64,000 nucleotides of DNA. It comes from Aphrocallistes beatrix (Eukaryota > Porifera > Hexactinellida > Sceptrulophora > Aphrocallistidae). The DNA lies in contig OY725497.1 of NCBI GenBank assembly GCA_963281255.1, forward strand, positions 4,084,968-4,148,967. Direction: 5' to 3'. The notes beneath the pieces are model-generated. The model made no database searches and was not told where the DNA came from. It saw nothing but the letters and a program-made list of their open reading frames with translations. The first letter of the stretch is position 1. Each line of letters begins with the position of its first letter. Positions 4,701-62,500 of the stretch are shown one piece after another. The translations under genes were made by a program, and so were the position numbers.

Positions 4701-7700
4701 TGCAGATAACAAGTATAAATAGGGAATTAGTATACTAAGTTTATTTATAATATGTTACATATATACGTACTCATTTTAGTTGAAGGCTTCATTAAAATAA
4801 CATTTTAGCCGCTCTTCCTTAGAGATTGTAGTTGGCCCTCGGAAGAGACGGGTCCACAAGCGCTCCATATAAATAGAGTCTGTCTCCTTACTCATCTTTC
4901 CGTACATCGATTCCATCCACTGCCTGTGCATCGAGATTGTGCGGCGTATTAGAGCCTCCGTCACCAAAAACTCGCCTCCACTCGAGCTACGAAAGTTGAG
5001 ACAATTTTCTTTTGTTCCCGTCAGAAGAGAGTACCATTCACACATGTTTTTCGCGTATGTTTTAGAGTTGAGCTGAGACAAAGAGCAAATGTATGATGCA
5101 TTTGTATCAAACTGCTCTGCCATTTCTTCCCTGGGAATTTTGATATAGTCACTTGGCTCAAAGCTCTTCACATTTTGTTGCATCCTGTCGATAACTGCCA
5201 TCACATCCTGGTACCTATGGAACTCAGGTGGGTTTGGGAGGAAGATGTTGATATTTTTGAAGCCAAATGACTTGTACAGCATGTGGAACAACCAGGTTTG
5301 ACTTACACTTGTTGTCTCAGGGAGTTTGACTTGGTTCACTCTACATGCCCCGTATTCTCCACTCAAGTCCGAACTCACCCCGCACCTTTGGTAGATATAA
5401 ATACTGACATCATGCGTATTGCATAAATTCGTGAATTGTTGGAGGAAGTCTAGCCCATTTTCACAGTTTGTAGTGATAATGGAGAGAGACGGGTTATTAT
5501 GTGCTCGGTTAAAAATCCTATTCATGTCCTTCAATGTAGTTTTACCGTAGATTTTCTCATCCTCAAAGGAAACGCCTTCCTCCTCATAAATTTTCTTAAA
5601 TTCATTGATTGCATTTTGAATTGCTTGATCCATGTTAAAGTATTTAAAACTAGCGAGACGCCCAACAAAGTGAACATTCTTGCTACTTTCTTCTGATTCT
5701 GCCAAATTCCGATACTTTGAATAGAGAATCCTGTTTTTCTCATTGAGTACAGGGTAGTATGGGTCTCCTTTATCTGTCGAATACTCCCGTACGATTGTTG
5801 TCCCTTTTGTTTCCTGAGTATACTGAGTATAGAGATGTTTGTATTCCACAATCCGAGTGAATGTCTCAGGTCCTTGAGGGTAGTTCACTACGGAGTTAGA
5901 CTGATAGTAAGAAATATTTTCAAAATGAAGGGTTTCAAATTTGATTGATCGATATTCTAAGCTATCTAACCCCCTCCCTGCATAATAGCGATCTATTGGT
6001 CCGGTAAAGAAGACCTTTTTGAAGTTACTTATGTCGATATGCCCGTTCTTCCCAGACTCAATGTAGTCCACACCTAGATGAGTTGTAATTCTAGCGTGAG
6101 TTAGCATGTTCCTCGCGAATGCTGTGTATCCACCTACAGGCAGAGCCTGGTAGGGATCATCTGGGAAATAGCGATCATCAAAATCATCTCGAACTGGAAT
6201 TCGTTGCAAGATGGAAGGGTCTAACTCCGCTGGGAATTTGTTCCATTGTTTCTTTGTATAGGTTTTGAATATCTTCTCATAAAGTTCTTTCCCTACCCTG
6301 GCCAATCCTGCTTCTTCACCATTCTTCGGATCCGGAATGTCTTCTTGGTGTACCTTGAGCCACTTTTGCATGTGTTCATGATTCTTTAAGTTTTCTTCCA
6401 TCAGGGAATTGACGGTCTGTATGTTGACAGGAATAGGCACAAGTTTATTATCTACTTTCCCTATGACACGGTGCTGGTATGGTGTCCACCGGGAGAACTT
6501 GTTCACAAATCTCCATACTTGTTCATCATTTGTATGGAAGAGATGTGCTCCATATAAAGATACCCGTATCCCCAATTCGTTATCAAAGTCATAGATATTT
6601 CCTGCGATATGGTTTCTTTTCTCCACCACGAGGACTGACTGATTTAGCACAGTTGCATGAAGATGCGCCAGCACTGCTCCACTCAACCCAGCTCCAACTA
6701 CTAGCACGTCATATTTGTGTTTTCCATCTGAACCTTCTGATTTTTCTTTCAATTCCTTTAGGAGATTATTATTTTGTACGATCCTGAGATTTACCTTGAC
6801 ATTAATACTGATCCAGTGGAGATTTTTCCTGAATAGTATTAAAGTTAATATGATGCAGAATGCTAATACCAGTCTCCGATAAAAAGTCTTCATTTTACTT
6901 TTAATTGAGGTTTTCTTGACTAATTCAGTGAAAAATAATACACAAAATCACTGATATTAAAAACATTCAACCATTTTAGTAATGAAATACCAAAATGGCA
7001 TTTAAATTTTTTTATTAGGAAAAATTTCGATTATTTAATCATTTTGGTACTGGTCCTTTTAGTACTGGTCCTAGACACATGTAAATAACGCGAAATTTGG
7101 TAAAAATCGGACTGTTATATTTTGCAGGATCGCGCGGACGGACGGGTTGACGGACATAAGTGCATCTCTTCACAGGAGCAGCACAGATGTGCTAATCCAT
7201 CTTCCCGTCTAAGAGTGCCACAATGCTCATTTTCAAATCGTTCTTCAGTTAATAGTTATTGGGTAGAGGGCTAAGTTCTCGATATATACAGTTGACCTTT
7301 GTTACACGGATAAAAATACAAAATACTCATACGCACAAATATTGACTGCTCACTTGTGTACATACTAGAGAGCAGCAGCATACTCAGGCTATCACTTAAT
7401 TTAGAGCGTATGGATTGTCTAGTACAGTTGTTTTAACCTGTCGTCCTTTTTACCAAACGTAAACGAATTGTAGTTGACTGGAATTTTTTGTGATTGTATG
7501 TTGCAGATATTATATTAACATTGTAGCCAGGATTGATTTAATGGAATATGCTACTGTACTTTATTTTAATATTTTAATATTTCGCTCTTCCTCATATAAA
7601 TCGATATTAAATAGTTGTATATTTTTATGCCTATGTCAAATTGTTAAACTCAAATTGTTCTTCATGTTAACAAATTAGTCCAAAATGCAATTATTAATTA

Positions 7701-23738: not shown

Positions 23739-24323
23739 CAATAAGCATTTCCTACTGCACTATGTTTATAAGCTCATTATTTTGCTTATTTTAGAATTCA
23801 AATGTGAAAATCTTGAGATAAAAATGTTTAGGTTACAATTGAATAAATTTTTATTTACGTTTCAGATTTAGAGTTCAAAATTCTTTCAATAATTAAATTA
23901 TTAAATGATTTAACCTCACTCATGAAGCATTTAGATTCAGATAAATTGTACCTTGTGACAATTATCATTTCCTTCTCATTGCAATTCGATATTACCAATA
24001 AATTTGAATGACCTACCTTTACTAAGTCAAAATATGAGGTTACAATCACAAGATATTCGATAAGGATATTCTTCCAAGACATTTAATCTCGTGGCTTAGT
24101 ATCATCCTTAAAATAGCTTGTGTACTCGCCATTCGTTTGAACTCTCGACCTTACATCTGCGTATAGCTATGTAGTGTTCCGCCTGAGTCCCAAAATACAT
24201 ATATCCAACGCATTAGTAGAACTGTACACGACATGTACTCAGAGGAGAAAACGAGTAATATATAAGCTCATAATGAAATATTATTAGTACTGATAATTAA
24301 CTGTAACAAATTAATAAGCTATC
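23739..24323. other. Intergenic, no gene seen
   Basis: AT-rich spacer between MED22 and the first cathepsin B gene. AATAAA near 23841 may serve MED22. Short open frames on both strands have no recognisable content. Confidence 0.5.
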
Positions 24324-25364
24324 ATGATGCAATTCACAACATTCCTTGTGCTATGTGGGTTGCTAACGATACAAGCTATTCACATTGACCTTGGCTTTGG
24401 CATTTATGTTGACGAAATTATCCCCCCCCATCCGTTTGCTGATGAAATCGAAAAAATAAACGCCTTAGACACTACCTGGAAGGCCGGTAAGCAAAAGCGA
24501 TTTGAAGGGATGAGTGAGTCTGATGTAAAAAAATTGTGTGGCGTACTTCCTTATTACGGCCCCCCTCTCCCTACCAAGGAAATAAAAGCGGCAGAAGATA
24601 TTCCTGACACCTTTGACGCTCGAACAAAGTGGCCCGATTGTCAAGGTATCGCAGAGATTCGTGACCAAAGTAACTGCGGTTCTTGCTGGGCCTTCGGTGC
24701 TGTTGAGGCGATGAGTGACCGTTATTGCATACACATGAAAAAGACCTACGAGATTTCTGCTGCTAACTTAATGGATTGCTGTGAAGCATGTGGCAGTGGA
24801 TGTGATGGTGGATACCCTCCTGTGGCATGGCGATATTGGGTCGAGACGGGAATCGTTACTGGCGGACTTTATGATAATTCTACCACTGAAGCGAAAACCT
24901 GCCAACCTTACCCGCTCCCAAGCTGTGATCATCATGAAGCAGGAAAAGAATCTCCTTGCTCGAAACAAATAGCTCATACCCCTCATTGTACGAAGACATG
25001 CCATGCAGGGTACAGCAATCCATATTCAGAAGATGTGCACCACGGTGAATCGGCTTATGGAGTTTCTGGAGTTGAAAAAATACAAACTGAAATTATGACA
25101 AATGGTCCAGTCGAAGCGTCTTTCACAGTCTACTCGGACTTCCCTACTTACAGGAGCGGTGTCTACAAGAAGCACTCATTCCAGGCGTTGGGTGGACATG
25201 CAGTGAGAATATTAGGTTGGGGAACTGAGGATAGCACTCCGTACTGGCTGGTTGCGAACTCTTGGAATCCAGATTGGGGGGATAACGGATATTTTAAGAT
25301 CGTGAGAGGCAAGGACGAGTGTGGGATTGAGTCTGGAATCATGGCTGGGATGCCCAAGGACTAA
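24324..25364 (+). CDS. CTSB: Cathepsin B-like cysteine protease, copy 1
   Basis: A 346-aa intronless papain-family (C1A) zymogen. Residues 1-18 are a signal peptide (MMQFTTFLVLCGLLTIQA); a propeptide follows with the short cathepsin B type INALDTTWKAG motif; the mature enzyme starts near IPDTFDAR (about 93). Catalytic Cys121 lies in NCGSCWAFG, His292 in GGHAVRILGWG and Asn312 in ANSWNPDWGDNGYF. The cathepsin B occluding loop is present with its His-His pair at 203-204 (CDHHE), so dipeptidyl carboxypeptidase activity is expected. It likely acts in lysosomes or is secreted for digestion. A related copy lies at 40237-41238; the two differ widely, so the duplication is not recent. Confidence 0.95.
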   Translation: MMQFTTFLVLCGLLTIQAIHIDLGFGIYVDEIIPPHPFADEIEKINALDTTWKAGKQKRFEGMSESDVKKLCGVLPYYGPPLPTKEIKAAEDIPDTFDARTKWPDCQGIAEIRDQSNCGSCWAFGAVEAMSDRYCIHMKKTYEISAANLMDCCEACGSGCDGGYPPVAWRYWVETGIVTGGLYDNSTTEAKTCQPYPLPSCDHHEAGKESPCSKQIAHTPHCTKTCHAGYSNPYSEDVHHGESAYGVSGVEKIQTEIMTNGPVEASFTVYSDFPTYRSGVYKKHSFQALGGHAVRILGWGTEDSTPYWLVANSWNPDWGDNGYFKIVRGKDECGIESGIMAGMPKD

Positions 25365-39930: not shown

Positions 39931-40236
39931 TCACTGCCATAGCATCATTAGCCGGTATGTAGTATAATTATTTAGTTTTCGGACTTTTTGATTTATTTGT
40001 CTAGAACATTGTAGGCGAGATTCAGGAGCATGTTAGGAATACGGATTACGTAGCTAGTATATTTATAATGTACGTATAGATATATTTATATATTTTCTAT
40101 ATCAAGTCAACTTTATATTTGGGCTTCTCTACTCGTTCTAGCCATGCAATTTGTAGTTCAGTCAAGGTCTCGGGTTATCTGTTGTCATTATTTAATTATA
40201 ACATTATTTACATTTACAACGAATGACCAATTAGCA
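39931..40236. other. Intergenic, no gene seen
   Basis: AT-rich spacer between GCN1 and cathepsin B copy 2. An open frame reaches back to 40144, but the added 31 residues lie upstream of a normal signal peptide and are probably untranslated. Confidence 0.45.
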
Positions 40237-41238
40237 ATGATGGTATCAAATTTATTATTGGAAATCTTTCTCTTCTCTATTCTCTACTCTCATGTAAATT
40301 CGAAGCACTTTGGCGACCTCATTGATCACATAAACTCGATTGGTACCACGTGGACAGCTGGGACACAGGGACGTTTCAAAGGGATGAGTGGGGAGGATAT
40401 CAAGTCCCTACTAGGTGTACTGAAGGGAGGACCCACACTTCCGATGAAAGAGTTAGATGGGTTGGCTTATATTCCTGAGAGTTTCGATGCTCGTGAGCAC
40501 TGGTCGCATTGTACCAGTATCGGAACGATTAGAGACCAGAGCAACTGCGGGTCATGCTGGGCTTTTGGTGCTGTAGAAGCTATGAGTGACCGTTTTTGCA
40601 TATTTGAGAATGAACAGGTGTCGATATCTGCTGAGAATCTGCTCTCTTGCTGTACAGAGTGTGGGAGTGGGTGTAACGGGGGGTATCCATCTTCCGCTTG
40701 GAATTGGTGGCTGAAGAATGGACTGGTTACTGGAGGCGTCTACAACTCCAGTGACGGTTGCCAGCCGTACTCTCTAGCGAACTGCGACCACCACATTCAA
40801 AGGAAGTACAAGACGTGTGAGGGGCATGCGACTACGCCTAAATGCTCAGAACAGTGCGTATCCGGATATGTCAACTCCTACGCGAGCGATAAACACTTTG
40901 GCGCTTATGTCTACCAAGTAGGTGTTCGTCCTGAGAATATCCAGGATGATATTTATAATAATGGCCCAGTTGAAGCTACCTTTCAGGTCTACGAGGATTT
41001 TCTGGTCTACAAGAGTGGAGTCTACCAACATGTGACTGGGAAATCGCTAGGGGGTCACGCAGTAAAAATATTAGGTTGGGGCGTTGAAAATAGAACCCTG
41101 TATTGGCTAGTGGCTAACTCGTGGAACACAGACTGGGGTGACGAGGGGTTCTTCAGGATCCTGAGGGGGCAGGACGAGTGTGGGATCGAGAACAGTGTCG
41201 TAGCTGGTTTTCCGAAGAAGTCAAACGAGCTATACTAG
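40237..41238 (+). CDS. CTSB: Cathepsin B-like cysteine protease, copy 2
   Basis: A 333-aa intronless zymogen. The start at 40237 is preferred over an in-frame ATG at 40144 because it places a classic signal peptide ([20 protein letters not shown]) at the N terminus and gives the usual length. The short propeptide has [10 protein letters not shown]. Catalytic Cys107 is in NCGSCWAFG; the His in [11 protein letters not shown] and the Asn in [14 protein letters not shown] are intact. The occluding loop CDHHIQ is present, so this is a true cathepsin B rather than L. It lies about 16 kb from copy 1 on the same strand, with three unrelated genes between, so the pair is an old dispersed duplication. 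Probably lysosomal or digestive. Confidence 0.94.
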
Positions 41239-50512: not shown

Positions 50513-53500
50513 TTAGTAGTTGAGAGCACACAGCATGGCCACACCCCTCTTGATCCAGTGGTACTGCGGCATGCTGGTCGGTAGTTCTATCGAAACGACG
50601 AAGTTAGTTGAGTGTCCGGTTGTGGACAAGGTGCCTGCTCTGGTTAAGGTCTTGTAGAGAGGACAATCGTATATTCCGGTGTCAGGGGAAGTGCGGTTAG
50701 CAGTCGGGAGGAGACATATCACAGGCATTTCCGTGTACAGTTCTTTAGGACGAGATTCTGTCAGCTCCTGTGCCGTATAAGACCACCTAGCTCCCTAGAT
50801 AGAAGTTGGAATGTTTAACCTAAGATCAAATCTATCTACATAATACGTAAACAAGAGTGCTCACTTCGATATAAAGTCCTCTGATGAAACATCCGCTCTC
50901 CGGCCTATCTGTTATCTCCAAGTAAGGCTCTTTCCTGACTTGGAAACTAAAGCTGATAACGTCTATTGAAATCTTAGTGCGGCGAGCGAAATTCTGGAGT
51001 GTTCCAGTCAAGAAGGCTTGGGGGAAGAAAAATCCAGAAAACCTTGAATAAAATTGGAAAAATTACTAAACAGCTGTAAGTATAGCCAATCCAGAGTCGT
51101 GAATACACATACCAGAATACAGTAGGAATCCCATCGTTTATCCATCCATCAATGAACTTGACCCTATCCACCAGATCGTCCACCCAGGCGGCCAGAGGTT
51201 TGAGTGATGGGTAGGCTTTATCCGCCCAAATCTTAGGTACACTGTTGTTGTACAGACTGATCGACATCTCCTCCAGCTGTTGTGACATCACTACCAGCCC
51301 TTTCAGCGCCTTGAGCAGGTCCTTCAGGGTCTGGATGATAGTCTTGATGAGTCGGTTGTATCTGATCACTTCCTGCACTAGGACTGTGTTCATTGACTCC
51401 TCGTACATGACGGGGTATTTTTCCATCACCTTCTTCAGAGGGAAGGGAGGTGGAATCTTTGAAAGAATGTTCTTTGACATTTCTTCTATCAATACTTCTC
51501 TCGAACTCCCACCTCCAGCCGAAGTCTTGGGTTGAATGAGTACGATACCATCCAATAACTGAATAATTACAACTATAAAATAACTTTTAGTATATTACCA
51601 ATTCGCCACCCCAAAAATTAAGAATTTATCAAATTATAGTTGTAGTTAATAAAACCAGATATCGACGGTACATGATGGATGACACAAAGAGGATTAAGAT
51701 CGAATCAAAATGTCAGATGTCACCGTACACTCTCGAATATGCAATGAATATGGATGAGGAAGACGCATTGTCTCAATTCAGAAATGAGTTCAACATTCCT
51801 CTCGCAAAAGATGTCATCAAGAAATACGCAACCGATAATAAAGAAACCGGAATTCAAGAGCTACTGAAAGGAATTGATGATAAAAAGGAATGCCTATACT
51901 TGGTTGGGAACTCTCTTGGCTTGCAACCCAAAAAGGTTATTTTGATAACTATACATGGTTAATAAAATTTTGAAACAAATGCTAAGGTAAATTAAATTCT
52001 AGGCAGGTGATCGTGTCGATGAACTGATGAAAAGTTGGGGTACATTGTGTGGATATTCACTTCGAGATTATATCCCAGGGGACGAACCCCTCCGCCTCCC
52101 CATGGAGAGAGTGGTAGGAGCAAAGAGTGGAGAGGTGGCGCTGATGAATACTCTCACTGTTAATCTCAGTTTGGGGCTGACAACTTTCTACCATCCTAAA
52201 GGACTAAGAAATAAAATTTTCATAGAGGATTTTTGTTTTTCATCTGACTACTACACATTTGAATCTTACATAAAGCTGCATGGACTAGACCCTAAGACTA
52301 GCTTATTGGTTCAGAAGGCTAGGGAAGGGGAGTGGACTCTGAGAACAGAAGACATCCTGGATAGGATCGAACAGGAAGGAGACAGCATAGAGCTAATTCT
52401 ATTCAGCGGAGTACAGTACTACACAGGGCAGCTGTTTGAGATGGAGAAGATAACGAGGGCCGGACATGCTAAAGGCTGCAAAGTTGGATTCAACCTAGCT
52501 CACGCTGCGGGAAATATTCCTCTCAGTCTACATGATTGGGAGGTGGATTTTGCATGTTGGTGTAGTTACAAATATTTGAATGGAGGACCAGGGGGCATTG
52601 GAGGATTTTTTATCCATGAGAGATATGCAGAGAGATTTGATCTCCCTCGAATAGCTGGATGGTGGGCTCATGAACCAGAGACGAGATTCCTTATGGATAA
52701 CAAGTGCGTATGATTTCACTGAGGTGTTATAAATATAAGATGCATTTAAATTAATTTATCGCAATTAGATTAATACTCCAGAAAGGAGCTCCTGGATTCG
52801 CACTGTCAAACCCTGGGATGTTGTTACTGAGCTGTATGGAGGCTAGTCTAGATATATTCTCTAGAGCTGGGATGACAGAGATACGCAAAAAATCTCTCCT
52901 TCTTACAGGTTACCTTGAGTACCTGATAGAGGGATTCAATGATGACCCACGATTAAAAGGTAAAGTGTACTACTACATACAGGCATTTAATTTTTATCCA
53001 TAAACTAAACTGTTCAAATAAACAAGAGTGCTACTCACATACTCAATTAGGACTTAGATATTATTTTTTTTTGTAGAATTAGAATAGAATGACAACATCT
53101 CAAGATATGAGTGCATTCTACTACTAACTACCATGTGGACAATAAGCCATGACCTATATACAGATTGAGCATTATACTATTATTCATTATAAATAACTCT
53201 TTAGTGAATAGATTTATTGTGTAGAGCAAGCTGTATAGCCTCTGTCAGGAAAATACCTAATGTAGTTCCACCAAATGCTAGAATAACATTGGCAGTAGAG
53301 GTGGTGACTGTGCCAAAGCTGTTCATTGTGAATCTGATCTTGCTCTTACCACAAATGTTCAACTCGTCTCTTATTTCTTTTGTAAGTTCGATCTTCTTCT
53401 CGGCAAGAATGACAAGGATATCATCAGTGAAGGTGTCCAAGGTGAGGTTTAACCTTGCCATGGAGTCAACCATCAGCCACACGCTTATCAGATGCAAAGT

Positions 53501-56500
53501 ATACCACATGATTAACCTAACAGCATCCGTGGTATCATGCGCCAAAAAATCCACCATTTTATTGTTATCACTCATAATGAACTTGACACTGAGCCCAACT
53601 ACGCCGAAGATTAGAACTACTGAATTGATAGCTGCGATCCAACGGAATTTATTCGCAACTTTTGCTACTCGATTTAAAACGAAGTAGAATTCACTCCACA
53701 GTTCGAAGGGAGGTGACTTTGCTATTACTTCCTGCTCAGGGAGAACATTGCCTGCTTCCTGTATTTCTCCTCTCTCAAGACTGTCCAACGTTTGGGTAGT
53801 AGGGGAGAGTCTTGAAGAGGCTGGAGAGGGATTACGGGTGGATGCCTGATCTTGACGCAATGGCATCATTTCTTGGCTTCGATTCTCCATGATTATGGAA
53901 TTTCTGAATGGGAGGCAACTCCAAGCGAACTTATACACGAGTTTATTTAGTTTAGAGGTGAGTTCTATGCAGGACATCCTGATAAAGAAACAGACCAGCA
54001 CTGGCGCTAAATGCCAATAGAAAGAATCGAATATCATGAAAATGAAGAGAAGATCTGAGTTTTGAGTTAGGAGGGAATAGGATTGAGTATTCTCCATCCA
54101 TACGTAAATATTAACGACTATCCAATAGATGACCAATACGACGCTCAGGATAATCACGATCAGATGAAGCAGGCTCCAGCCGAACCTTCTTGAAAATTCA
54201 GATCTGTACTCAGAGCTCTTAATAAACTTCTTATACGAGAATGTCGGCGAATCTTTGAGACCGTTAATCCGCAGCTTATACTTGTAGCTGCTAACTTTAT
54301 TTCGGACGATATCCCTAACTAATCGGGAGATAGGCTTGTGGTCATCTCGCTTCACCCAGGAATAATAGAATAGGAAGAAGGTAGAGCAAAGTGCTATTAA
54401 CCCGTATATGTAATCCCAGACGAACAGGAAGTAGTCCTCGTACTCGTGGTAGAGACGGCTTGCAGGAGAAATTCTAACGTATCCATTCTCATTATCAGAG
54501 AAGTTATCGAAATTATCGGTTAGGATATAGATGAACAAGACAGGCCTGTAAAACAAGATGTCAATCAGGAAAACGAGCAGAATTGTGATTTGAAGAAACG
54601 CACCAAGGGAATTCAATATCGCTACAGAAATGCAACATGTAAATTTCTTCCAACCAGCCCTCTCCTCCGAATTTATATCAGATAGATCTTGTCCCCATGT
54701 GCACAGCTGGCATTGGGCCAGTAAGAACAAAGGGGTCAACCAGGATCTTTTATGATCCTCAATTGCCTCATATTTTTTCACTGATTCGTCCAGGGTCTGT
54801 TCGAAATTGGGTCTAAGCTTAGAGAGATCCTCTCCGTTGCTTATTGATTGGTAACCATGTCTCGATGCCATTTTAAAAAATCTATGCAAAACAGCTCTAT
54901 TTATAGTAATTCATGTAATTACTTTAATACGTCTTATTAAATAAGATATGATTCTCGTAACTTGTATTCTACATAAACTATAATACACAGGTTATATTAA
55001 TATATTTCAAGTTTATTCGCCTTGCTTCATATTGATTTATTGTCTTTTTTGTGTATGTGTTTTTACATAATTATTAGTCAATACAGTCTAGTATTACATA
55101 AGTAGTTGTCAGTGATTTTTTTCGAATTTGTATTTACATAAGACTAGATAATATTGTACTTAATGCAATTACGAATCAGCTTAACTTGTGTGTATGAAAA
55201 GTACGTTTATGATATTATGTAATACGTACTACTAAAGTTTGATATGTCCTTGTGTTAGGATTAATAGAAGTGATAACCCCCAGGGATGAGGATCAGAGAG
55301 GAGCCCAGCTATCCCTACTTAGTATACACGCGAAAGAAATCTATCCCAAACTGAAGTTGAGAGGCATCGCAGTAGATTACAGGCACCCGGACGTCATTAG
55401 AGTAGCCCCGATAGCTCTCTACACTCGTTTCAGGGAAGTGCTAGAGTTCTATCAAGTATTGAGGGAGATACTCATAGCTGAGGAATAGACAGAGTTTTTT
55501 GTTCACTTACATAACTAACATTTCGTATTCCACAAATAGTTTTGTATTGCAGTTAGGCACTTAATTGATAGCACTTACCTTGAAAGTCTCACTTTGTGCG
55601 AATGTTATATTCGCATTTTCATGCAGCCCAAATATTTCTGGGGTGTCATTAATCGGTAAATCTTTGACGTATTTCAGGTAGGATGTTAGTTTGACGTCTG
55701 GATCCAACTGGTAGTATATCCCGGTATTGTCGAATTTATGTTCGGTACTAAGTACTTTGAGATGATAGAAATTTGTCAGGATGTTCATTAAACAACGTCT
55801 GTCCCAATCGTCTGTCACTCTACCTCCGTAGTTGATATGTCCCGCAGTGTAGCTAAATCCAAAAGAGTAAACTTTTATTGTTAATAGAATATTGTGTTGT
55901 ACCAATAATAACTGACCTCAGTACTTTGAATGGAACGTCAGAATACTCGTCTAAGAACATTTGCAGTTGACTGATACAAATTTTCAAATCTCCGTCAGTG
56001 AACTCGTAAGGAATGTTGAATCCTAGAGCTCCGAATTTCCTTCTCTCCAAGGTGACACCGTGGAAGAGACAGAGAGAGAATAATAGGAATCTAAACTCGT
56101 TCTTCTTCGTACACAGATTGAGGAACTCGTCACTCATTCCTGTGTAGGACTTGAGCAAATTCGCTTTTATACCCCGAGGAGGTTCTATGGTCATTTTACA
56201 CCCGTTCTGTAGGATAGGCACAGGGAACCTGGCACTTGGCATGCTGGTTAGCCACAGTCTAAAGTCCCTGTGTACCTAGTAGGTGCAAAACATGTAATAA
56301 GGTGTCTATAAATTGAAGAAGCTAATATCCAGACTGTGTTAGGAGGACATACTTTGTCTCCTTCTATCTGCTCGATGAGACGCTCGAGAGTTGGCATCCA
56401 GCTGGGAGCAAGGTGACAATTCTGGAAGAATATCCACTTTCCTCTCTCCATTCCTTCCTTCATCATCTTCTCTGCGATCGGCCCCTGTCCCTGCCCGAGA

Positions 56501-59500
56501 GAAATGGCCGACAGCTTCTTAGTGAATTTCATTTCTTCTGTGAATTTGTACAGATCAGCCGCCGGGTCAGTCCCCTGCGAGAGCACGAAGATGAGCGGAG
56601 AGACGGGACTCGAGTCTTTGAACGCAACGGCTAGATCAGATGTCTGCGGCTCTGGAGATTGAATGAATGCAATCATTAATTCAAACTTGTAATAATATTG
56701 ATTATGATGTAGTGCTTCTAACCGATAAATCGCTGTCCGATATTTTCAGAGACGAAATCCTGCATTGCGTTGGTAACTTTGTCCGGTCTGAGGCAGCGCA
56801 GCACGAGCAGCTTCTGGAACGAGTCCAGCTCGGACCAGTGGTTGGGCAGCTGTTCTTTGTGCGGATCGATGCTGTCGAATATTGACTTGAATCGCTCCTT
56901 CAGTTCTATGAACTCCTCTGCGAAGGTGGTGAACCTCGTCAAGTTCTACATATGCAAAGGTATTAGATTAGAAGTTCAGTACGCAGTGTAGGATGTGTGC
57001 TTGTGACCGCTTACTTGGATACTCAGTATTTCCTTCCAAGACCGCTCGTTGATCCAGTCAGGAGCCGGGTTAGGGAGCTCCTTGGGAACAACCGCACTCC
57101 CGGAAATGAGGAACCGCCATTCTTCCAGGTCGATCTTGTCTTCGTTCATCAGAATACGGATTGAGAGTAGGAAGGAGAAAAGTAGTTTGTGCTTCTCAAA
57201 CAGAGATCTACATAGAGTGGCAGTATCAGTGTGTCGTTACTATTTCGGAGATCAAATTAGAACGGTGTATCTACCTGCAGACGTTGGAGTAGAGACTGAA
57301 TGTGAAGTAATCATTGATGTTGTATATCCGTTCAGATAGATCCTCACTCTTCTCAGCTCCAGCAATGCTAGAGAGGAAGATAGTGAGGAACCACTCCAGA
57401 GAGTACTGGTACATGGGGTCGATGTTAGATAGGTCGTTGACACAGAAGAAGAGGATGCGAGTGCGTATCGACACTGGAATGTACAAGCTACGCGTCGAGT
57501 CAATGTCTTGTTCAGTCTTCTCCGCCACTGCTACCTGAGAGAGAGAGAGGATTCAATTCGCAGCACCGCACTCTAGCACTAACACCAGACACTCACTTTA
57601 CTCTGTATCTCCTGGGACTTAGCCTTGCTAGCTTGCAGTACGTCGATCATCTCGATGTCATCAACAGGATTCCCTTTCGAGTTGCTGAGTTTGAAGAGAA
57701 TCTTGTCTTCAATTTCTTTCAGCTCCTGCTTCATTCTAGCATTGGAGACGATGAGTGCATTCTTGGCATCTTCTAGATCCGGCCTCTCCTCTGCTACCAC
57801 GAACCCCAGTAGCTGGTCCTCCAGTCCTCTTGGACTCAGCGTGAAGTTCAGCACGGTCACCTTGGTGGCCAGCTCTGGGGTGTAGCGGGGGTTGGGTAGC
57901 TTGGTGGTTATGTATAACTTGAAGTCGTCGTGGTATGGAATCACATTATCACCTGAGTGGGCAGCATAACACACAGCGCAAGGGATTAAACGCACCAGAC
58001 ACAGTCACAACTAACCCAGCTTTATGACCATACTGCCCGCCTGCTTGAAGGTCTGGCGCGTCAGGATGGGGTCCAAGGCTGGGTCCAATTCCTCGCCTAC
58101 GTTCTCTAGGAGACAGGGCTTACCAAACCTCACCGCGTTCTCTAGACTCCTCAAGAAGTCCCTGTCAGTTAGCTTCACAACATCAATCGACTTATCCTTC
58201 TCCAAAGACTTCACCCATCGATTGGCCTGGCCTTGAGGGTCAATGAAGAGAGGCCAGCGACGAGAGAACTGGACGATGACTCCGTTCTCCACTGAGAGGT
58301 TGTCCCGCGGCAGTCCTGCTAGCTGCCACTGTCTGATGCGGACAGGATCGCTCAGCGTGTTGATGAGGGTGGCAGAAGGAGAGTACTCGATGTGCTCTTT
58401 AGTTAGCTTCGATTTCCAAAGCTGAGCATACAATAAACAGCATAAAGTACTAGTTCCACATGATCGTAGTTTCCCGTTATCTTACCTGTACAAGGGCGTC
58501 TCTAAAGTTCCCAGTGAATGGACCCAGGTAAGCGATGGCACCAGAGGCGAGTAGCACATCTCCAATCACGTTCACTAACAGTTTATCAAACCGTTGCACG
58601 GTATCTCCCCAACGGTCCTTCTCATCTGCTAGACCTCCGATCAGTTTATGAGCTCGCTCCAAGCGCTGAGTACATAAGTCCACCTTTTCAGCTAACTCCT
58701 GTTTCTTACTTGCACACTCCTCGTACTTGGCTTGTAGCACATTGATGCCGTCTAGCACCTAAAACAAAGAAATAAAGGATTTGTACGTATACACGTATCG
58801 TACTATCTAACAGTAATTTATTGTAACAAAATTACCTCCTTCAGTTTATCTTTCGCTTTGGCCAACTCCTTTTTGGTGATCTCCAGCTCGGAATTGGCCT
58901 GCTGCAGTCTCGCTCGCTTCGGAGCGACAGATTTGGCGACGTGATGGTACTTGTGCATTGCTCGCACCCACAGACAGATAGAGGTGCAAGCATGGCTTAC
59001 TTTCTCAATGTTAGCTGGTGTGAAGTCTGAGTTTTCAATGTACGGGTTGATCTTCTGAACAATGTTCTCAGGAATGTTGTCTTTGTCGTAGTCGTAGAGT
59101 GCTTGGAGGAACTTGTCAGGGTTGACCAGCAAGCTCCTGCTCCCATCCCAGTAATCGTCGATCTGGAGAGACTCAAATAAGAATTCCATCAATGCAGTAA
59201 CAAATCAACAACCTACCTTCACACCCGGTTTGTCCCCTGCTACTCGCTTCGGCTTGACTCCATGCATGATGCACACAGTCTCCATCACGAGCTTCACACC
59301 GTTGGGAGGGTTGGCGAAGGCCCTTATCTCTACGATGTCGTTCCTGTTCAGGGACTTGAGACTGGCTACGGCCGCATCCAGAGCCGGCAGGGCTTCGTCC
59401 AGGTCTCTTTGGGCGTCTTTCTGTATCGCCTCGCACTCCTCGGCCTTTGCGACTGCACTCACTTCCTCCTTCTCGACGATCGCCTTCGTCTCATTCGCCA

Positions 59501-62500
59501 CGATGGAGTCCTTCTGAATCTGCTCGAGCGTCTCGTCTGTCTCAATCTGAGCTTTCTCCAGGAGAGGCTTCATGTTGGCTAGCTCCTCCTGCAGCCCAGC
59601 CACGATCTCGGCAGTGGAGAGCAGCTTGTCCAGGCCTGTCTTGGTGCGGTTCCTCCCGCTAGAGAGCTCCGTCTTCTGAGAGGTGACTAGCTTCTGGAAG
59701 AGTCCCAGCAGCTCCAGATAGCTGGTAGGTGTCACGTGGTTCTGTCGGTTCAGCTCCACCATGTACTGTCTCGACTTCTCCACCACCGACTGGTGGATGT
59801 CCACACACACCTGCACCAGCCCGTCAATGGAGTCCAGGCTGGACAGCTCGGGGAGGTCCTGAAGGTAGGTATTGGCCACTGACTTCAGAGCTTCGTCCGG
59901 CCATTCAGAGAACCAGTCGATGGTGCAGCAGTTGACGAGACTCGGGAACTTCCTCAGTCTGGACCGAAACACCTCTCCGATGGGACTCATGCAGATCACC
60001 ATGTGTATGCTCGCGCGCACTCGCTTCGTGTAGGCGGTGAAGAGGTTGGCTTTCGTCGCCTGCTGGCCTGCGTCCTGGACGACCGGCTTCATGGCGTCGA
60101 GGATTTTGTCCTGCTCATCTGGCGCGTAGATGTTCGGCACATCTCCTGAACTGAGAACGTTGTTGATGTCCTCCAAGAAGCTTTCGCTCTTTATCTGAGT
60201 GTCCGAGAAGAGGAACACCACCGGTTTGTTCTCCAGCCCAGCTTTGAGCAGCACATTCTTCACGTCCTCTCTCCACTCGGCGATCCCGTAGTTCTTGCTG
60301 AGCTCTATCTGGAAGCAGTCGTACTCCGCCATGTGCGAGGCCAGTCGGGTCAGGGACTGTCGCCCGGAGCCCCCGACACCTAGCAGCAGCGCGTTGCCCA
60401 GGGGCTGTCGGATTATCCGGGAGATGCGACACACGTGCTGCATCGCGTCTTTGAACAGAACCAGGTCCATCTTCGGGGTGTTGATCTGATTGTAGTCGTC
60501 CAGGTACTCGTCCAGTGTTTGCGACAACTTCTCGTAATCCTCCACCTCCACGTACTGCTTGTCCTCTTGGTTGGGGACCATAAAGTCTCCGTAGAATAGC
60601 GTGTCCTTGTTCAGGATCTCCTCGGGCTCTACGCCGAACTCTTTGAACCGCTCCTTCATCCTCTCACTGAACCAGCTCCTGTCCTCACAGCTGACGAGTC
60701 GGTCCTGGAACACGCGGCAGCACTCGTGGTACCACAGTCTGAGGAGGGAGGGCAGGGAGGTCATGCGGTGCGGCTGCACCATGAGCACCCCCTGGAACAC
60801 CTTGCTCAGGTCTCGCAGGTTGAAGGTGTAGTGGCTCTTGGCTGGGGTGGGGAGGAGCTCGGAGGTGATGGTGGAGTAGACGGAGACGGTGGCTCTGACC
60901 AGCTTCTCTTTCAGGTCTTCTTTGTCCACGCGCAGCTTGGAGCAGATCCCCAGCCACGCCCCCAGGATGGCGCAGAAGATGGTGGCCTTGGAGGCGTCCT
61001 CCAGCTCAGTGAATGCCAGGAAGTTGTAGTGTCTGAGCAGGCGGGGAGTGGTGGGATTCCTACCGCCACCAGGGGGGCCGATCGCAGAAATGAAGTTCAT
61101 GTCTACCAGGTTCCTGAATGCACCTACCACCTTCCTGTCGTACCAGCCCTTGTGGTCCATCCACTGGCGCACAAGCTCTATTGGCGGTTGAGCGCCGAAT
61201 TTCTCCAGCGCAGGCATGTTTAAGTCGTCAACAAAGAATACATATTGCTTACCTGTGAAACACAACACATATAACACAATTTCCTCTCATTACAGTGCTA
61301 GTTGATGGAGGTGTTGATAAACCTACCGAGAGGTGGTCCAAACACTCCTTTCCTTCTCTTGTCCAGCTTGTTATCAATAATGTCCTGAGTCTGGTTGGCG
61401 CTAGTCTGAGCTGAGAAGTTGAGGATGTGGGAGAGGTACTCCTTCGGCATCGTACTGAGCAGCTTGTCTACAACACAGAGAGTCTTGCCGGTCCCAGTCG
61501 GTCCCACGCACATCACCGGTTTCTTGTTCGTAAGCAGGAGTTCGATGAGGTAGTTAGAACGGATGGTGTCTTGTGTGGGGACGATGATATCCGAATATTT
61601 CATGTAAGGATCGATCTAACAACAAATTCGGGGAGATGATGTTATATAATGCTACCATATAGGAAAATGCAATATCAAATGACTACCTTGATAGCTTTAG
61701 AGTCGTGCATCCAGTTTTGCCATTGAATCTCCCCCGTCCTAATCTCGGTCTCATCTCCCTCCTCCCTCTTCTCCATCGCACTAGCACCCCCGTCATCCAG
61801 CTTGTAGTCGTAGATCAGGCCTTCTTCCGGGAATAACAGTCTGAATCCTTCCTCCTTCATCAGCCCGCGCACATACCCGTCCAACTGAGCTCTGCCGTCG
61901 TTCTCACACGTAGCCCCCATCGTCCACACGAAGGAGAAAATGAACCAAGGTTCGATTAGATCAGAGATCATTTTCAGTTTTTCCTCCAATATTGACACGC
62001 CTAAGAGATTAGTGTTAAAACCAGCACTTAAAGACCCCAACCATCGACACTACTCACCTTCTGTAATGATAAATGGCTTGAAAAAGCACTCAAACATCTT
62101 CAACAGACTGAACACCAAGTTAGCATCTGAAGTCGTTACAATCTCCTTGATTTGCTCTCGGATGAAGTTGATGCTTCTCTGAACGAACTTATCCAGCAGC
62201 TGAGATATGGTGGGGATGTGGGGGTGGAAGTGTTTCAATGTTTTGTCTTTTTTTAATTTTTGTGTCCAAGATCTCAAGAAAGGAGACAAACCTTTAAAAA
62301 ATTATGAAATAAATCTCAATTTCGCATTGCGTTATTTGTGTATACTGAAGAACTAACCGATTAGACTTGGCTCCAGATACACCATTCCACAGCGACTAAC
62401 CGTTGCTGGGCTAGCTACAGCCAAATCCTGCACCTCAAACATGAGCGTCATCTCCTCTGTCAACTTTATGATCTCTCCACTCGTGAGACACAGCTTCTTG

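Follow-up and report, generated by a model that had tools for sequence, protein, structure and literature searches.

Two-level nesting of a membrane-protein gene within a kynureninase gene within a DNAH1-type dynein gene

Are the three genes read at this locus, a membrane-protein gene, a kynureninase gene and a DNAH1-type dynein gene, truly placed one inside the other, and how might such an arrangement have arisen? Analysis of the window (the whole 64-kb stretch of DNA) confirmed the two-level nesting as real. The coding exons of kynureninase are all located within the DNAH1 host intron and the 556-aa open reading frame (ORF) is located entirely within kynureninase intron 3 (Table 1). Each inner coding part is therefore enclosed by a single intron of a different gene, in accordance with the definition of a nested intronic gene in PMC8527503. 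GT-AG borders were present at all four introns examined, i.e., the DNAH1 host intron and the three kynureninase introns. The Pfam AAA_lid_11 domain reaches its last profile position before the host intron, and Dynein_C starts at position 6 after it. The intron coordinates and splice phases proposed in the initial annotation were borne out; the strands alternate as proposed, with DNAH1 and the membrane protein on the minus strand and kynureninase on the plus strand. The identity of the outermost gene was also confirmed. When the exon after the host intron, the one exon searched, was compared with the PDB, the top three of the 62 matched sequences were Dynein axonemal heavy chain 1, with a best E value of 8.2e-57 vs 1.7e-43 for the next match.

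We consider it likely, at a probability of about 0.78, that these are three independent protein-coding genes, separately transcribed with ordinary splicing, that became nested in the order proposed below. DNAH1 would be spliced across the 4-kb intron. Kynureninase would be transcribed in the opposite direction within that intron, and the inner gene would be removed together with kynureninase intron 3. The membrane-protein gene would have a TATA-box promoter of its own and be transcribed in the direction of DNAH1. Nothing in this reading calls for a special regulatory role.

Table 1. Features of the nested locus, in window positions.
Feature	Position	Strand	Remarks
3' exons of DNAH1-type dynein heavy chain (several), to the stop codon	50513..51558	-	Dynein_C 1.7e-51; final exon taken from ORF list
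DNAH1 host intron, 4,020 bases, GT-AG	51559..55578	-	Matching intron, directly before LLDG, in second DNAH1 copy
DNAH1 exon 5' of host intron, AAA_lid_11 end	55579..55852	-	AAA_lid_11 profile 60-140 of 140, 7.6e-25; reads in frame
Kynureninase gene, 461 aa, four exons	51672-51935, 52003-52703, 52769-52959, 55259-55488	+	
Kynureninase introns, 67, 65 and 2,299 bases; phases 0, 2, 1			Positions and phases identical in C3 paralog
Kynureninase intron 3, holding innermost gene	52960..55258	+	
Innermost gene, single-frame, 556 aa, seven hydrophobic regions, predicted N-in/C-out	53201..54871, stop included	-	
TATAAATA box, 34 bases ahead of the innermost gene's start codon	54898..54905	-	TATAAAWA pattern

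The product of the middle gene passed the cut-off of NCBIfam TIGR01814 (246.4 bits) with a score of 395.4 bits and aligned over query residues 3-458 with PDB 3e9k, which we take to be human kynureninase, at an E value of 2.5e-125, in agreement with its earlier assignment as a kynureninase. The match to 1qz9, presumably the Pseudomonas enzyme, was far weaker (E 1.4e-40). A second kynureninase gene is present on another contig (C3) and bears three introns at identical places and phases. Given the matching introns and the difference between the two E values, origin as a retrocopy or by bacterial transfer was rejected. Along the near full-length alignment to human kynureninase, the nested protein retains Lys276 (human numbering; in SYKYLN), which we assume to be the PLP-binding lysine, as well as Asp168, Tyr275, Trp305, Asn333, and Arg434. 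It differs from the human protein in having Asn in place of Asp250, presumably the residue that holds the PLP ring nitrogen, and in the absence of the stretch carrying His102, a residue that we assume to act in substrate choice. These two differences, together with the presence of a second kynureninase on C3, suggest that the nested copy might be a pseudo-enzyme that folds and is expressed with its catalysis lost or changed. We regard this as possible, with the odds somewhat against it, given the list of retained residues. In the alignment, the C3 copy retains Asp250, but its residues at positions 168 and 333 are Glu and Ala, respectively, and the stretch with His102 is missing from it too; neither copy is thus the more canonical one. 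A dN of 0.34 with saturated dS between the two further argues for strong constraint on the kynureninases since their split. The families of two further kynurenine-pathway enzymes, tryptophan dioxygenase and 3-HAO, have matches in the genome.

The innermost gene belongs to a family for which 16 loci were found, and 13 of these, the window member included, were aligned. The longest stop-to-stop frame within the DNAH1 host intron spans 569 codons. Among 1,000 sequences from a first-order Markov model of the host intron, built with the kynureninase exons included, the median longest frame was 96 codons and none exceeded 191. A TATAAAWA pattern is found upstream of 10 of the 13 aligned members (shuffle mean 0.95, maximum 5). 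Intronlessness looks like a family trait because each of the aligned members is single-frame. A retrogene of a local intron-bearing parent is unsupported, as all 13 span the alignment in one frame.

A second, truncated DNAH1 copy, which the initial annotation did not include, lies ∼280 kb away, and the same intron of this copy carries two co-oriented relatives of the membrane protein. Comparison of the nested membrane protein with these two gave dS values of 1.11 and 1.03 and dN/dS values of 0.29 and 0.31, respectively. The DNAH1 segment adjoining the host intron showed a dS of 1.26 between the two copies (95% range 0.69 to saturation). Since the membrane-protein genes (dS 1.0-1.1) have diverged at synonymous sites about as far as the adjoining DNAH1 exon, the inner gene was probably in the intron before DNAH1 duplicated, and the nested arrangement looks old. 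Along the two DNAH1 copies the dS values form a mosaic, being 0.47-1.26 in 6 of 20 segments and 0.05-0.38 in the other 14, so that the dating depends on the smaller group of segments and on gene conversion as the explanation for the larger one. The locus is a clean, well-bounded two-level nesting with an internal comparison; because relatives of the inner gene occupy the same intron in a second host copy, the sequence of events and how old the nesting is in relative terms can be inferred within one genome. Judged from these comparisons, a kynureninase duplicate would have settled in the DNAH1 intron with its introns kept, and hence as a DNA copy rather than a retrocopy. The membrane-protein gene would then have come into kynureninase intron 3, after which the 3' part of DNAH1 would have been duplicated 280 kb away. 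The second DNAH1 copy would finally have lost kynureninase and a stalk region and doubled the membrane-protein gene. In addition to the DNAH1 match, a separate 439-base stretch with 82% identity was observed between sequence beyond the right end of the window (extended coordinates 80405-80821) and 4404614-4405049 beside the second DNAH1 copy.

The loss of kynureninase from the second copy is deduced from there being no convincing trace of it. A tblastn search of that copy (E up to 10) returned five weak matches, the best with an E value of 0.004 and 27% identity; four of them coincided with the frames of the membrane-protein genes and the fifth with an exon of DNAH1. The same observation would fit kynureninase having entered the intron only after the DNAH1 duplication, such that the second copy never had it. 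This appears unlikely, since exons of kynureninase lie to either side of the membrane-protein gene, and a late arrival around a gene already in place would take two coordinated events or else a rearrangement. The kynureninases also split before the DNAH1 copies did (saturated dS vs about 1), which makes the kynureninase gene itself old enough for the early settlement that we favour.

Antisense interference among the nested genes is possible. The outer two genes must be transcribed in opposition, and a scan for four poly(A) signals found none in the 90-base gap between the kynureninase stop and the DNAH1 exon. Over the 1.1 kb covered downstream of the kynureninase stop, no AATAAA was present; the sole signal found was an ATTAAA at 55787, which is inside the DNAH1 exon, and the kynureninase and DNAH1 mRNAs may therefore overlap. 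AATAAA was likewise missing from the 1.7 kb covered downstream of the inner gene's stop, where only AATGAA at 53188 and ATTAAA at 52991 were seen. The missing AATAAA signals count against the preferred reading. The opposed transcription and the 90-base gap could be taken to mean that nesting was selected as an antisense switch, with transcription of kynureninase repressing both DNAH1 and the membrane-protein gene, or vice versa. We find such selection highly improbable, because the second DNAH1 copy manages without kynureninase and nesting is common without known regulation. The locus would also lend itself to a study of possible effects of antisense transcription on nested genes. An assembly or gene-model artefact, in which the genes would not be truly nested, is hardly credible given that the window contains no N and sits inside a 4.87-Mb contig, that all four introns examined have GT-AG borders, and that relatives of the inner gene occupy the same intron of the second DNAH1 copy.

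With three separate, ordinarily spliced genes as the preferred reading, we turn to the affinities of the innermost one. The initial annotation had described a receptor-like protein with seven membrane spans. Seven hydrophobic regions were indeed predicted (Kyte-Doolittle), but the charge pattern indicated an N-in/C-out topology and not that of a GPCR. Using segment borders transferred from the window protein, we found Lys and Arg to be enriched in the N-terminus and loops 2, 4, and 6 in 13 of 13 aligned members (48 vs 4 in the window protein). The extracellular N-terminus and cytoplasmic C-terminus of GPCRs are thus reversed, by prediction, in every aligned member; the predicted family topology resembles that of insect chemoreceptor channels. 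Similarly to the 7TMIC superfamily of insect gustatory and odorant receptors (PMC9998090), the family shows seven hydrophobic regions, a predicted cytoplasmic N-terminus, and several members in tandem. It differs in that the window protein lacks the TM7 motif TYhhhhhQF, and in having no match either to Pfam 7tm_7 (0 of 13 members, with E allowed up to 1) or to any solved receptor. A family profile searched against the PDB at E up to 10 gave three sequences of an unrelated transporter (E 0.28), and no Pfam 7tm family was among the Pfam matches of the window protein and the family members. PF08395 had no matches in the same genome, in a search whose controls were silent too. At the sequence level, the family is without a match in the databases searched. 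A literature search for gustatory receptor-like proteins with sponge and Trichoplax found nothing, and the portion of PMC11526382 consulted added nothing on sponges and this family. We tentatively propose, as an idea more doubtful than probable, that the innermost gene represents a new single-exon, tandemly expanding, insect-chemoreceptor-like channel family in a nerveless sponge lineage, one member of which became trapped within a DNAH1 intron and, together with a kynureninase whose active site is altered, was maintained there by selection while the host duplicated. Should its fold prove to be that of insect chemoreceptors, the superfamily would gain a further branch, probably from sponges.

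Nesting as a phenomenon is already known and is ordinary for such compact genomes. The initial annotation had called two-level nesting rare; this is contradicted by excerpts reporting 2,357 nested and 484 doubly nested genes in Hormiphora californensis (PMC8527503) and 2,432 nested genes (12.4%) in the glass sponge Aphrocallistes vastus (PMC10282587). In Hormiphora, as here, whole genes sit in single introns, two levels deep and on either strand (PMC8527503, in part); that species belongs to another phylum, as judged by family searches, whereas here a second host copy provides a relative age. The A. vastus genome is likewise compact, with many nested and many single-exon genes and with Wnt absent, according to the same excerpts (PMC10282587), which do not count doubly nested genes; it differs in size (80 Mb vs 100.5 Mb in the genome studied). 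Less ordinary are the kynureninase with Asn250 and the membrane-protein family with its predicted N-in/C-out topology, and this family may prove more valuable than the nesting itself. Wnt, innexin, and collagen IV had no matches in the genome; these zeros are no proof of absence, and control genomes were silent too. The three zeros agree with absences in the glass sponge Oopsacas minuta given in an excerpt of PMC10280926, and with the match to fibrillar collagen they make a glass sponge the probable source. A ctenophore, considered on account of genome size and of the published nested genes, was set aside on this same pattern of family matches. Fibrillar collagen COLFI was matched in the genome.

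The three-gene nest described in the initial annotation, in which an intron of a DNAH1-type dynein gene holds a kynureninase and an intron of the kynureninase in turn holds a membrane-protein gene, is real and was correctly described; the intron and open reading frame coordinates given there match ours. The best match of the exon following the host intron, among 62 matched PDB sequences, was Dynein axonemal heavy chain 1 (E 8.2e-57), and the next kind ranked at E 1.7e-43. Pfam models flank the host intron without notable loss: AAA_lid_11 extends to 140/140 and Dynein_C begins at position 6. The kynureninase aligns with PDB 3e9k across residues 3-458; its start and stop lie 113 and 90 bases, respectively, from the DNAH1 exons on either side. 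Kynureninase introns 1, 2 and 3 measure 67, 65 and 2,299 bases, respectively, the third containing the inner gene. The longest stop-to-stop frame in the host intron spans 569 codons versus a maximum of 191 in 1,000 first-order Markov random sequences built from the same intron. Among the other genes of the window, one encodes a UDP-galactopyranose mutase domain, an enzyme not known from vertebrates.

Features of the nest, its copies and neighbouring genes (window positions unless a contig is named: C11, the contig carrying the window; C3, another contig of the same genome; L numbers, fetched pieces)
Feature	Position	Strand	Basis
Dynein heavy chain gene	right part of window, ends 50513	-	domain models
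DNAH1 host intron	51559-55578	-	GT-AG borders
Kynureninase, four exons, 461 codons, complete	within DNAH1 intron 51559-55578	+	alignment, exon borders
Inner gene	53201-54871, within kynureninase intron 3	-	one open frame, 556 codons
Second DNAH1 copy, truncated fragment	C11:4408205-4422430 (L049, L039)		similarity to window DNAH1
Second kynureninase	C3:3564721-3600515 (L034-L038)		paralog match
Single-frame gene with UDP-galactopyranose mutase domain	4779-6947	-	PF03275, 3.2e-61
GCN1-like protein, one uninterrupted frame, 2,624 codons	32056-39927	+	
Papain-type proteases, two, single-frame	24318-25361, 40069-41235	+	Propeptide_C1 in each

The second kynureninase, on C3, shows 56% identity to the nested one over 455 codons, with dS saturated. 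All three intron places are common to the two genes and their phases (0, 2, 1) are identical, which marks the nested kynureninase as a DNA copy, and an old one. Intron 3 of the C3 gene is also long (2,162 bases), with only one frame of at least 120 codons, on the opposite strand; its apparent first intron of ∼32 kb contains retroelement-like frames, as judged by eye. In human numbering, the nested protein keeps Lys276, Asp168, Tyr275, Trp305, Asn333 and Arg434, while Asn replaces Asp250 and a deletion removes the segment that includes His102; we take these residues to have catalytic roles. In the paralog alignment, the C3 protein keeps Asp250, but its positions 168 and 333 are Glu and Ala instead of Asp and Asn. 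Family searches matched tryptophan dioxygenase and 3-hydroxyanthranilate dioxygenase in the genome, so the kynurenine pathway is represented by at least two further steps. Two partial tryptophan dioxygenase matches, covering the C-terminal part, were observed at C2:1637533-1645216, and a fuller gene lies on contig C15.

The inner protein gave no match in Pfam and NCBIfam. Its relatives in the genome comprise 20 matches at no fewer than 16 distinct loci, window included; 13 were aligned, and three of the 16 stand outside the alignment, with the frame broken, in two frames or split over fetched pieces. A PDB search with the 13-member profile brought up only three sequences, all from an unrelated transporter (E 0.28). 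Hydropathy analysis revealed seven hydrophobic regions, and Lys and Arg are concentrated at the N-terminus and in loops 2, 4 and 6 in all 13 aligned members, which predicts a cytoplasmic N-terminus, a topology shared with insect chemoreceptor channels and opposite to that of GPCRs. The protein is a candidate for the insect receptor superfamily (7TMIC, PMC9998090), although the window protein does not retain their TM7 motif. Distant relatives form tandem clusters at C18:398001-408000 (L044) and C2:553001-570000 (L042, L043); one C2 frame (L042 4866-6614) has a long short-repeat stretch at its end.

The two closest relatives (57-59% identity, C11:4416413-4421009) form a tandem pair ∼280 kb away, where a second copy of DNAH1 carries them in the corresponding intron; their orientation with respect to DNAH1 is that of the window gene. 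The host intron breaks the protein at an equal place, before LLDG, in both copies. The second copy begins to show similarity near the AAA1 region, as judged by eye, and lacks a counterpart of window 58666-59567, a stretch within the microtubule-binding stalk region. Over the 5 kb of upstream sequence retrieved, the only match was a separate 439-base stretch (82% identity), which occurs near both DNAH1 copies (80405-80821 in extended window coordinates, L048, and C11:4404614-4405049, L049). A sequence search detected no kynureninase in the second copy.

Comparison of the inner gene with these two relatives gave dS of 1.11 (0.86-1.51) and 1.03 (0.82-1.33) and dN/dS of 0.29 and 0.31, indicating that the inner genes are old and under purifying selection. 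The tandem doubling within the second copy is recent, given its dS of 0.11. Between the DNAH1 copies, dS was uneven across 20 segments: 1.26 in the segment adjoining the host intron, whose frame extends a few codons beyond the exon; 0.86, 0.70, 0.66, 0.61 and 0.47 in five; and 0.05-0.38 in 14. We read this pattern as a duplication of old date that gene conversion has partly overwritten. On that reading, the segments spared conversion roughly match the inner-gene dS, which argues that DNAH1 already held the inner gene in its intron when it was duplicated. Because the inner gene is bracketed by kynureninase exons, the most economical history would have the full nest present before DNAH1 duplicated; we infer that the kynureninase was then lost from the second copy.

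The inner gene very likely has a promoter of its own, because TATAAAWA occurs within 150 bases upstream in 10 of the 13 aligned members (1,000 shuffles: mean 0.95, maximum 5), some of the 13 being tandem copies and not independent. In the window, TATAAATA is located at -34, upstream of the inner-gene start. Apart from this promoter, the nest would require only ordinary splicing. No AATAAA was present in the 1.1 kb scanned after the kynureninase stop; the sole signal found is ATTAAA at 55787, inside a DNAH1 exon, so the kynureninase mRNA may form an antisense overlap with DNAH1. The 1.7 kb scanned downstream of the inner gene likewise contains no AATAAA, the signals there being limited to AATGAA (53188) and ATTAAA (52991). 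Antisense interference among the nested genes, proposed earlier, is possible on this arrangement.

The claimed rarity of two-level nesting did not hold, as it is a known, frequent feature: PMC8527503 gives 2,357 nested genes and 484 that are doubly nested for a ctenophore, and PMC10282587 gives 2,432 nested genes for the glass sponge Aphrocallistes vastus. What this locus adds is the internal evidence on the age of the nest and a membrane-protein family without database match. The genome comprises 28 contigs totalling 100.5 Mb, and the window occupies 4084968-4148967 of the 4.87 Mb C11; the genomes of Oopsacas minuta, also a glass sponge, and A. vastus are small and compact. The most plausible source of the present genome is a glass sponge. 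Family searches of the genome gave no match for innexin, Wnt or collagen IV, zero matches not being proof of absence; all three are reported lacking in O. minuta (PMC10280926), as is Wnt in A. vastus (PMC10282587). A fibrillar collagen (COLFI) match was found in the genome.
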